Assembly (NCBI GenBank): GCA_944322095.1
Contig: CALUNU010000011.1
Coordinates: 1 to 64,000, forward strand
Direction: 5' to 3'
DNA from: an uncultured Alloprevotella sp.
Lineage (GTDB): Bacteria; Bacteroidota; Bacteroidia; Bacteroidales; Bacteroidaceae
Length of the DNA stretch: 64,000 nt
Shown here: one piece after another, positions 16,833 to 20,016 of the stretch
Position numbering within the stretch: the stretch's first letter is position 1
Layout: each line of letters begins with the position of its first letter
Notes under the pieces: generated by a model
Databases searched by the model: none
What the model saw: only the letters and a program-made list of their open reading frames with translations
Told to the model about the DNA's origin: nothing
Program-made: the position numbers and the translations under genes

Positions 16833-18257
16833 TTACAAGGTGTTTATCTGTTCAATCTTTTCTCCATCGAAGGCATATTCGTCGTAGTATCCCTGAGAAC
16901 CGACGGGCACAATGATGTGGTTGTTCTCGGGGTTCAGCACCATGCGCCGCTGGCCTGAGATCCAGTCGACGTATTCAAGCATCTTTCCGTTGAACCTAAA
17001 AATGGAAGTGATCGTTTCCGTGCTTTTATCGCCCACTGTTACGAGAATTTCATTGGTTCCGTCAGCGTTTAAGTCCACAACGGAGCATTGAATATATTGC
17101 TCGGCAAGAAATCCATATTTGTAGTTGTCTCCCATTTCGTTCCATGGAAGATTACCTATAAGGTCGAACTCGTAGTTAGAACTGTAAGTAAGCGAGATAT
17201 CTATTGGGTGTGGCCATCCTTGAGCGAAATGGAGCGTTTCATTCGCAACGCCATCGCCGTTGATGTCCCATTGGGGTATAACTCCGTCAGCGTCGGGCTT
17301 TATAGTACCGCTTAGTTTGGCATTATTTCCATCTGCGATGTCCCCAACCCGGCCGAAAACGAAATTGACATTTCCTATATCGAACAGCAGATCGGCGTAG
17401 GGGCTGTTTTCGTCGTAGAAGTAAGCTTCTCCTGCTGTTTTTGTTTTATCAGTATCCGTAGAATCTGTCGGATAGGTCCCTGTGAGGAAATCCTGCATGG
17501 CGTCCTGCTGTTTCTGTGCCTTGCCCGCCATCACGACGAAGCCTACAATGAAAAGCAGGGCGGCTGCGGCAATGAAGATCCAGTCGGTGCCTCGGGCGCG
17601 GACGCTGCGGCTCTGGGTGCGCCCCTCCCTGGCCAGCAGGAGGAGCAGCCAGATGCCGCCCACAAAGGGCACGAGCGAGATGAAAATCCACCCGCCGCTC
17701 TTGCCGATGTCGTGGAGGCGGCGCGTCATGAGGGCAAGCACTGGGACGATGAGGCCCAGCGAGAACAGCAGGGTCAGCAGGAAACTGGTGTGGGGGATGA
17801 GCAGCATGTCCAACCCGAAGACGCCGCAATAGGCCAGGAGGTAGAACAGATAGCTCATCCAGAACTTCTTGCGGCCGATGGCCCCGCGGAAGTCGGCGTA
17901 GTGCTTGAAGAACGTGTCGACGAGGTAGTATTGCAGCATGCCCGCCTTGCCCGTGTCGGCTTGCTGCTCGTCGCTTGCGCGGTCGGCGTACGGCATATAG
18001 TCCGACAGGCGACGTGGCTGCTGCCGTGCGGGCTGCGGCGTGCGCGGGGCCGCGGCCGCCGTGGCGCCCACGGCTTCGTGGCAATGGGGGCACACGGTGG
18101 CGTCAATGTCTATCTGCTCGCCGCAGACGGGGCAGGCCTTCGTTTCTTTCTTGGGCGCGTGGCTTTCTTCCGTCAGCCATTCGCCGCAATGCTTACACTT
18201 TTTGGCCGTAGCCATGATTTCTTCCCCGCAATAGGGGCAACGTTTTGTTTCTGCCAT
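16833..18257 (-). CDS. Zinc-ribbon and DUF805 membrane protein
   Basis: A 474-residue protein of mixed architecture. Residues 1-60 hold two zinc ribbons with CxxC pairs (Cys7/10 with 21/24, Cys42/45 with 56/59). Residues about 115-250 form a four-helix DUF805 membrane domain (FRGAIGRKKFWMSYLFYLLA, MTRRLHDIGKSGGWIF). The C-terminal 200 residues carry two Asp-rich loops, WDINGDGVANE and VDLNADGTNEI, like the calcium-binding FG-GAP/EF-hand-type repeats of secreted Bacteroidetes proteins. The function is unknown. It is the distal gene of a minus-strand group whose other members also carry a zinc ribbon or a lipoprotein signal. Confidence 0.82.
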   Translation of the reverse strand: MAETKRCPYCGEEIMATAKKCKHCGEWLTEESHAPKKETKACPVCGEQIDIDATVCPHCHEAVGATAAAAPRTPQPARQQPRRLSDYMPYADRASDEQQADTGKAGMLQYYLVDTFFKHYADFRGAIGRKKFWMSYLFYLLAYCGVFGLDMLLIPHTSFLLTLLFSLGLIVPVLALMTRRLHDIGKSGGWIFISLVPFVGGIWLLLLLAREGRTQSRSVRARGTDWIFIAAAALLFIVGFVVMAGKAQKQQDAMQDFLTGTYPTDSTDTDKTKTAGEAYFYDENSPYADLLFDIGNVNFVFGRVGDIADGNNAKLSGTIKPDADGVIPQWDINGDGVANETLHFAQGWPHPIDISLTYSSNYEFDLIGNLPWNEMGDNYKYGFLAEQYIQCSVVDLNADGTNEILVTVGDKSTETITSIFRFNGKMLEYVDWISGQRRMVLNPENNHIIVPVGSQGYYDEYAFDGEKIEQINTL

Positions 18258-18415: not shown

Positions 18416-18868
18416 TCAGAACGCGAGCCAAGGCGCCAAGAGGATGGCTGCAAAAACGAAGAGGTCGCTCAGGCAGCCCGAGAGGCAGCCGTCGCCGCTG
18501 TCGTCATCGTCATCGTCGTCGCTGCTGTCCTCTTCTTCGTCGGTCTCCTCCTCTTCAGCTGCGCTTTCGTCGGCGTTTTCTTCGTCGGGCTCCTCGTCCG
18601 TCGCCACCATTGCTTCGTCGTAACCGCTGTCGTCCTCGTCGTCGTTTTCCCGGGCGCGATGTTTTTCCAGTTCGTGCTTGATGTCCTCGGCGGTGTGGCT
18701 TTTCTAGCCTTCCTCCGCCGCGGCGCCTTGCTCTTGTTGCTGCTCGGCGGACTTTTCCTGTTGCTGCCCGGCGTCTTCTTGCGGCAGCCATTCGCCGCAG
18801 TGCTTGCACTTGCGGGCTACGGCCAGGATTTCTTCGCCGCAGAACGGGCATGTTTTCAGTTCTTCCAT
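18416..18868 (-). pseudogene. Small zinc-ribbon protein gene interrupted by an in-frame TAG
   Basis: From ATG 18868 the frame encodes a zinc ribbon nearly identical to that of the neighbouring DUF805 protein (CPFCGEE...CKHCGEW, Cys7/10/21/24), then a Gln/Glu-rich linker. A TAG follows the linker, after which the same frame stays open through KSHTAEDIKHELEKHRAREN, a long acidic run of Glu and Asp, and a hydrophobic tail DLFVFAAILLAPW. The continuing, non-random frame suggests one gene of about 150 codons with a nonsense change. Alternatively the short zinc-ribbon protein (about 58 residues) is itself functional. The start overlaps the upstream lipoprotein gene by 13 nt. Confidence 0.6.
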
Positions 18869-19584
18869 GATCCGTTCTCTATGTCTGCGTCGGAAATGCA
18901 GTGATACGTCAGACGGCCCATGTCGCCAGTCGCGTAGGAGAGCGTTTCGCCGTTGATTTTCAAGTCTGTAAAGCCTGCTCTTTCTGCATCGTCCTTGTTT
19001 TGAGAGACATAGAGAGCCCGCTTCTCTTTATAATCGGCCTTGCGTATCTCTTCGCCGAGCTTGTCTTTGTCTATCATGTCTTCGCCCAGATTTTCGAGCG
19101 TATAGTCGAGCATCTGCCACGCCACGTCGGTGTTGGCCGGCTTGTAGTCGAAGTGGTCTAGGCTGACTGTGAGCGAGGAGATGTTGTAGGTCTGGCAGAG
19201 GCTGCCCATGACGATTTCCCATGTGCCCTCCACTTCGGTGGTACTGGCGTAGTTGTATTTCAGATCCTCGTCTTCCCAGTTTTGTTGAAAGTAGGTTCGT
19301 TCGACAAACGTTCCGCCGTCGGTTGTGCTGTCGGGGTCGTGCTTGAAGGTGATGAGCGAGACTTGCGTGAAGGGGTCGCCGTCCTCGTCTGTCAGTTCGT
19401 CTTTGTAGATCCAGTTGCCTTCGGCCATTTTGGCCAGCTCGCCGTCCTTGTCTGTCAGTTCGCTTTTGTCGCTCCCGTCGCCGTTGGCCTTTTCAGATTG
19501 TCGGCCGTCGGAGCACGAGGCGGCCGTGAGCGTTGCACACGCGAGGGCCGTGCCGAGGGCCACTTGTCGGAATGTCTTTTTCAT
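18856..19584 (-). CDS. Predicted lipoprotein of unknown function
   Basis: A 242-residue protein with a lipoprotein signal (hydrophobic residues 7-20, then AASC with Cys24 as the likely modified residue). The mature chain begins with an acidic, Asp-Gly-rich linker containing two copies of ELTD[KE]DG, followed by a beta-rich region ([30 protein letters not shown]) that resembles lipocalin-like DUFs of Bacteroidetes. The function is unknown. It heads a minus-strand group with the zinc-ribbon gene, whose start overlaps its stop. The upstream leader is unusually long and structured. Confidence 0.78.
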
Positions 19585-19603
19585 GGTGGAAGGTTTTAGA
19601 GAT

Positions 19604-19974
19604 TTATAGATATTGTCGGCCCCGGGGCATACAGAAAGAGCGTAAACCCGCTTGTTGCCATTTGTCTGCTGAGGCTCTGGTAAAACCCGTACACTTCAAA
19701 TAAGCAGAAGCAGTCCACGCCCTTTCGGGTGTGAACGTTGTTCTGAACTTATAATCCCGAGTGTACTCAAAATTTACCAGATTTTCAGCCGAGGGACGCC
19801 GTTCAAACACGTTCAGTCGTTATGTCTGTCGTTTTTAGCTTGTTGTCTGTTTCGTTCTTCCTGTTTTTGGGGTTGATGCCTCCAAAGGTAGGAATTACGG
19901 AAACGATGTGCAAGCTTTTCCGCCAGAATTGTTGCGTGGACTGCCTGCTATGCTTTCGCTCGTCGTGGGGCTTC
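19604..19974 (-). ncRNA. Candidate structured leader RNA or conserved intergenic element
   Basis: Two minus-strand promoters upstream imply a leader of 290-390 nt before the lipoprotein gene. Nested perfect inverted repeats are present: TCTGGTAAA (19676-19684) with TTTACCAGA (19773-19781), GTACACT (19689-19695) with AGTGTAC (19760-19766), and TCGGG (19725-19729) with CCCGA (19756-19760). A longer-range pair is GCAGTCCACGC (19710-19720) with GCGTGGACTGC (19934-19944). The 68-codon frame in it (19604-19810) has no recognisable domain and could be chance. The stems suggest a folded RNA, possibly regulatory, or a repeat element; the strand and the boundaries are inferred. Confidence 0.45.
19883..19914 (-). 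promoter_or_regulatory. Minus-strand promoter, proximal
   Basis: Minus-strand CTTG (19914-19911) and TACCTTTG (19890-19883) are 20 nt apart. It would give a leader of about 290 nt to the lipoprotein gene. Confidence 0.6.
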
Positions 19975-19978
19975 GGGG

Positions 19979-19986
19979 CAAAGGTA
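19979..19986 (-). promoter_or_regulatory. Minus-strand -7 element, distal
   Basis: TACCTTTG on the minus strand, divergent from the plus-strand gene at 20103. No -33 element was recognised. Confidence 0.45.
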
Positions 19987-20016
19987 GGGACTAATTCCTT
20001 GCCGGCCGGCGCCTCG

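Follow-up and report, generated by a model that had tools for sequence, protein, structure and literature searches.

A dispersed leader RNA family of the Bacteroidota with two competing folds, probably a transcription attenuator

The window, that is, the whole stretch of 64,000 nucleotides that we analyzed, carries on its minus strand a gene for a predicted lipoprotein without a Pfam or NCBIfam match. The second gene past it (16833 to 18257) encodes a zinc-ribbon plus DUF805 protein, and at 18700 to 18870 on the minus strand a zinc-ribbon frame lies beside an acidic ORF, apparently cut by an in-frame TAG; judged by its sequence, this frame is possibly a decayed gene. Upstream of the lipoprotein gene lies a structured element whose bounds are approximately 19801 to 19657, with a 5' partner reaching 19815 and a 3' partner reaching 19631 (minus strand). 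The features, in the direction of reading, are as follows.

19979 to 19986, minus strand: distal Bacteroidetes -7 box TACCTTTG, candidate outer promoter recognized by sequence, within a 15-bp direct repeat
19883 to 19890, minus strand: proximal -7 box TACCTTTG, from which the leader is probably transcribed, about 82 to 89 nt upstream of the hairpin
19793 to 19815, minus strand: segment 1, partner of segment 2 in the terminator state and, tentatively, of segment 4 in the long-hairpin state
19657 to 19801, minus strand: conserved core, a long unbranched hairpin (antiterminator fold), defined by covariance models R1 (91.3 bits) and R2 (76.2 bits) and by pair covariation
19773 to 19781, minus strand: P2 5' strand TCTGGTAAA (CCGCCAA in most copies), partner at 19684 to 19676
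19760 to 19766, minus strand: P3 5' strand GTACACT, of different sequence in nearly every copy
19727 to 19756, minus strand: segment 2, the 5' strands of P4 and P5 (GATTATAAGTTCAGAA, CGTTCACACCC), from the swap test
19699 to 19722, minus strand: segment 3, the 3' strands of P5 and P4 (GGGCGTGGACTG, CTTCTGCTTATT), from the swap test for 2:3 and 3:4
19689 to 19695, minus strand: P3 3' strand AGTGTAC, forming a 7-bp stem with GTACACT at 19766 to 19760
19676 to 19684, minus strand: P2 3' strand TTTACCAGA (TTGGCGG in most copies), forming a 9-bp stem with 19781 to 19773
19673 to 19688, minus strand: site at which other copies have a mini-hairpin, GGY..RCC, capping the terminator; the window reads GGGTTTTACCAGAGCC and is missed by the search pattern
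19638 to 19654, minus strand: segment 4, CAAGCGGGTTTACGCTC, complement of segment 3 and 3' strand of the putative terminator hairpin, from duplex energy
19631 to 19640, minus strand: U-rich tract CTCTTTCTGT that follows the putative terminator hairpin; most other copies have a stronger one
18856 to 19584, minus strand: putative regulated gene, an ORF for the 242-aa predicted lipoprotein, with its ATG 72 nt after the hairpin

An earlier note on this DNA had proposed nested stems forming one branched structure. The 9-bp and 7-bp stems and a small apical one, which reads CCC-GAAA-GGG in the window copy, lie nested where the note placed them, and their folding exceeds chance: against dinucleotide-preserving shuffles, the minus strand gave z = -3.54 for 19640 to 19830 and z = -4.30 for 19585 to 19990, with no shuffle as good in either case. 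Being almost a palindrome, the element also folds well on the plus strand (z = -3.88). The branched shape did not survive, since folding and pair analysis join the stems into a single imperfect hairpin without branches. The note had further pointed to an 11-bp complement at 19934 to 19944. This complement is real and exact (GCAGTCCACGC at 19944 to 19934 against GCGTGGACTGC of the apical hairpin), but it lies about 120 nt beyond the conserved element and is no feature of the family, and we treat it as incidental; it is another complement, at 19654 to 19638, that the family has in common. A coding explanation, through the minus-strand ORF at 19604 to 19810, was rejected on the grounds that the copies vary in length and sequence while their pairing is kept.

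A DNA search of 58 congeneric genomes returned an orthologue in one genome (G055) that is 96% identical, as well as divergent matches of short length, including one in the window's own genome; these have a common core motif and the same fold despite unlike stem sequences. Short-motif matches without the fold, in G021, G042, G052 and G056 (L014, L015, L018, L020, L024), were discarded. Covariance searches, one of the checks that the note had suggested, were then based on six copies and on 48 copies. The six-copy model found the element in 33 of the 58 congeneric genomes, and with the 48-copy model it was detected in 157 of 393 Bacteroidales genomes, representing 97 of 207 genera; the numbers of copies per genome in this order-wide search are lower bounds. 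In a sample of the whole phylum the element is sparse (26 of 247 genomes at an E value of 1e-6). A pattern scan of named genomes gave, among the matches listed, Prevotellaceae, Paraprevotella clara, Hoylesella loescheii, Dysgonomonas, Alistipes, Rikenella, Phocaeicola, Muribaculaceae, Paludibacter and Flavobacterium segetis, together with single MAGs labeled Ignavibacteria, Kapaibacterium, Lentisphaerae and Deltaproteobacteria, and the covariance model confirmed nearly all of the pattern matches. The MAGs from outside the Bacteroidota could be mis-binned. Part of the named copy set was picked by a pattern lying inside the element, and the copies are related, so that counts across them are not independent. 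Eleven predicted viral contigs of IMG/VR (L293 to L303) also carry the element, with a restriction-like gene following it in L298, L300 and L301. Two loci have paired copies: those of L190 (309 to 444 minus, 759 to 894 plus) lie head to head with about 315 bp between them, and those of L188 (1489 to 1620, 4601 to 4731) share one orientation at a distance of 3.1 kb.

Rfam 15, which includes the T-box, known riboswitches, 6S RNA and Bacteroides motifs, had no match in the window, and for seven copies at permissive thresholds it returned only miRNA noise. Our search of the literature, largely the open-access part of it, found no description of the family and little on transcription attenuation in Bacteroidota. 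The family is widespread and, it appears, undescribed. It could be among the palindromic candidates of Fremin and Bhatt (2021; PMC8040213), whose 250 palindromic structured-RNA predictions from human microbiomes include 230 that are terminator-like and several found mostly or only in Bacteroidetes. Those automated predictions differ from our family in that the passages describing them mention no bistable fold, attenuator logic or mini-ORF.

The long hairpin is maintained by compensatory change, as the note had suggested examining. Across the 48 copies, 92.5% of pair cells hold standard pairs, 35 of 39 pairs have changed on both sides (7 of 8 in the P2 helix), and the covariation score is 0.564, compared with 0.206 for shuffled alignments and at most 0.109 for slid controls; because this alignment was fitted to the long-hairpin model, it is biased towards that fold. 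Broken stems accompanied by a conserved protein frame, which the note had named as grounds for abandoning the idea, were not seen in these 48 divergent copies. In otherwise near-identical copies (L056, L060, L062, L064, L068, L072, L073), P3 is wholly and P1b partly different while the arms remain complementary, as if P3 and in part P1b were hypervariable identity tags. Six further copies (L095, L099, L113, L105, L106, L109) have about 30 to 50 extra nucleotides at the apex, which form additional stems.

Just 3' of the hairpin, a segment resembling the 5' strand of the apical stem is followed by a U run. The element can be divided into four segments. The pairing of these segments was assessed by a swap test on 100 copies, in which a copy's own partner competes with that of another copy. 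The copy's own pairing was better in 91% of cases for 1:2, 89% for 2:3 and 94% for 3:4, whereas the controls 1:3 and 2:4 gave 49% and 50%; for 1:4 the value was 60%, a weak preference. The mean 3:4 duplex energy was -20.3 kcal/mol for own partners, -14.1 for swapped and -9.1 for shuffled ones, all folding energies here being nearest-neighbor estimates. Taken alone, the sequence from the apical 3' strand through the U run forms one long hairpin (median of -33.8 kcal/mol in 91 copies). Its capping mini-hairpin has closing bases that covary, with GGT..ACC in 35, GGC..GCC in 23 and T-G in 3 of the 61 pattern-matched copies, a set that leaves out the window copy, and no mismatches. The helices of this second fold covary (0.322 versus 0.211) even though the alignment was fitted to the first, and each half of the element folds better than mononucleotide shuffles (mean z of -2.72 for the 5' half and -4.20 for the 3' half). 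The element is a conserved cis leader with two mutually exclusive folds.

The window copy has both of them, with -25.0 kcal/mol for the 5' half, -34.1 for the 3' half and -51.9 for the long hairpin, and its 3:4 duplex (-19.9 kcal/mol) is close to the mean over copies. With its weak U tract it may be a decayed or low-efficiency member of the family. Across copies the long hairpin is the more stable fold (medians of -68.5 versus -57.4 kcal/mol), with a median equilibrium preference of 11.7 kcal/mol; hence the terminator can prevail only through kinetics or with some assistance.

Expression signals surround the element. Of 100 copies, 78 have a T run of at least 5 no more than 45 nt from the hairpin (10% in the background), and 91 have one of at least 4 inside this distance. 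Upstream, TAnnTTTG occurs within 140 nt in 53% of copies against 8% of background sequences, mostly at -95 to -70. Two minus-strand -7 boxes had been noticed earlier in the window, and both are present, at 19890 to 19883 and 19986 to 19979, the proximal one inside the -95 to -70 cluster of the other copies. They fall within a 15-bp direct repeat (19883 to 19897 and 19979 to 19993; 87% identical, 96 bp apart), suggesting from sequence a duplicated promoter. Downstream, a sense ORF of at least 60 aa starts within 260 nt in 149 of 162 copies, at a median of 63 nt, and in 146 of the 162 it is longer than any antisense ORF. In several copies before genes for helix-turn-helix (HTH) proteins, the ATG is only 0 to 4 nt past the U run. 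There the gene must be transcribed through the element, since a separate promoter fits nowhere, and the element is therefore a cis leader.

These positions bear on three other explanations. If the element were a separate small RNA gene that finishes at the U run, and the gene after it had a promoter to itself, this could account for the -7 box upstream, the terminator-like 3' end and the several copies per genome; given the fixed sense orientation before genes and the short spacing, which leaves little or no room for a promoter, we consider this explanation quite unlikely. Alternatively, the main role of the hairpin could be in translation or in the stability of the mRNA, for instance by offering a site to RNase III, with the U run incidental. 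Pairing of segment 4 could indeed mask a start codon that comes right after the U run in some copies, yet the U run is strongly enriched and the distance to the start codon ranges from 0 to over 200 nt, making this explanation unlikely as well. Most improbable, in our judgment, is a mobile palindromic repeat akin to MITEs or REPs, with a hairpin that is recognized at the level of DNA. Insertion in either orientation is not what we found, as the position is fixed and 146 of 162 copies are in the sense orientation; the U run, the promoter position and the in-frame mini-ORF described below are features of expression, and HTH genes related to one another have the element in their leaders in different families of the order. 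What such a repeat would explain is the dispersed, near-palindromic nature of the element, its several copies per genome, the scoring of its antisense strand in the covariance model and its occurrence on some predicted viral contigs. The earlier note had spoken of a new riboregulator, a conserved intergenic repeat or both, and both terms suit a dispersed family that stands in sense orientation before genes and has compensatory changes and competing folds.

A coding leader peptide was rejected, as ATG ORFs reaching segment 1 are depleted (8% versus 49% in mononucleotide shuffles). A different reading frame appears in one subgroup. Where segment 1 is AGCGT or similar, 54 of 87 copies have an ATG, zero to two codons and a stop at -60 to -30, compared with 8.8% expected, and other triplets in place of ATG score 4 to 19. 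Of 93 ATGs at -58 to -36, 71 are followed in frame by a stop no more than three codons away, compared with 12 and 14 in the other frames, a bias which supports a real start-stop frame. A ribosome on this mini-ORF would end about 10 to 15 nt before segment 1. The window copy has no mini-ORF ATG at that position, and most copies outside the AGCGT-type subgroup have no mini-ORF.

This last point leads to a rival that differs from our preferred interpretation, given below, only in its signal, the attenuator output being the same: a riboswitch-like leader in which the long hairpin senses a metabolite or a protein and no ribosome takes part. Several unpaired or loop-proximal nucleotides are highly conserved, namely GAAA before P2, GGTG..TACC around P2' and, upstream, an unpaired RACATA (at -45 to 0 of the element in 57% of copies versus 2% of the background), and these, with the scarcity of mini-ORFs, are what such a sensor might display. 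The downstream genes, however, have no pathway in common, which is unusual for a metabolite sensor, and the halves of the element are mainly complementary strands in which a compact aptamer is not evident. We regard a riboswitch-like leader as possible, though doubtful.

Our preferred interpretation, which we hold to be probable, is that the minus-strand region from 19631 to 19815 belongs to a widespread family of cis-acting leader RNAs and that the family consists most likely of bistable transcription attenuators, the control of termination being what we infer from the two folds and the U run. The four segments would pair in two mutually exclusive ways. In the OFF fold, 1:2 would form a 5' hairpin and 3:4 a long hairpin which, followed by the U run before the gene, would act as an intrinsic terminator. 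The ON fold would consist of one long hairpin made by 2:3, together with 1:4, and would destroy the terminator. Because 1:2 would form first during transcription, the terminator may be the kinetic default. A factor that blocks pairing of segment 1 would then probably allow RNA polymerase to read through and turn the gene on, and the start-stop mini-ORF upstream in one subgroup suggests that the status of the ribosome is involved.

Attenuators of the trp type in enterobacteria have the same exclusive 1:2, 2:3 and 3:4 pairings that the swap test favors here (91%, 89% and 94% versus 49 to 50%) and likewise place 3:4 and a U run before the gene (78% versus 10% of the background in our family, with a weak U tract in the window copy). 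In contrast to those systems, our family lacks a leader peptide with regulatory codons overlapping segment 1, its genes are not biosynthetic, and a single family serves many unrelated genes. PyrR- and TRAP-type attenuators of Bacillus have a large antiterminator overlapping the 5' arm of the terminator. The present leader has such an overlap too, but the Bacillus systems are controlled by proteins and the genes of our family are unrelated. In Bacteroides, the tetQ leader contains a very short leader peptide. This leader, from the conjugative transposon CTnDOT, attenuates translation (Wang et al. 2005, cited in PMC5418344); it is similar in being a Bacteroides attenuator linked to translation and different in that translation rather than termination is controlled. 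The regions before tet ribosomal-protection genes, three of them scoring above the NCBIfam cut-off and others more distant, gave no model match (no R2 match at L304 to L306 and one chance-level match of 14.2 bits near L307), and the tetQ leader was accordingly rejected as a relative.

The genes that follow the element are diverse. A simple signal-peptide rule predicts export for 99 of the 165 downstream proteins, compared with 14% of other ORFs at the same loci, and on reading their sequences, with no domain search, many look like BspA-like leucine-rich-repeat proteins, dockerin-containing proteins or lipoproteins. Others resemble restriction-modification subunits (L086, L171, L179, L220, L300) or a SIR2-like protein (L113). 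Also recurrent is a small HTH-like protein, about 70 to 100 aa long; the member tested has no Pfam or NCBIfam match, and among the order's 30 best HTH loci about 20 have the element close upstream. The genome of the window has three copies, before the lipoprotein gene, a gene for a secreted protein (C4:70182-70315) and a small HTH gene (C12:12184-12325), while no element was detectable upstream of two further small HTH genes there (L319, L320; C5:33740-33916, C24:785-988).

It is conceivable, and we offer this only tentatively, that one attenuator family across the phylum ties surface, defense and small regulator genes to the status of the ribosome, a large subgroup doing so through the start-stop mini-ORF in place of a coding leader peptide. 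Present in about 40% of the genomes sampled from the order, a single leader family would provide a shared switch for surface and accessory functions, acting in gut and oral bacteria before genes for exported proteins, restriction and small HTH proteins. The mini-ORF subgroup poses a testable question, namely, whether start-stop translation alone can set a transcription attenuator. As the family is missing from Rfam, the covariance model can be used for its annotation. In one contig assigned to Lentisphaeria (L223), the element precedes a gene for a double zinc-ribbon protein similar to the product of 16833 to 18257 in the window.
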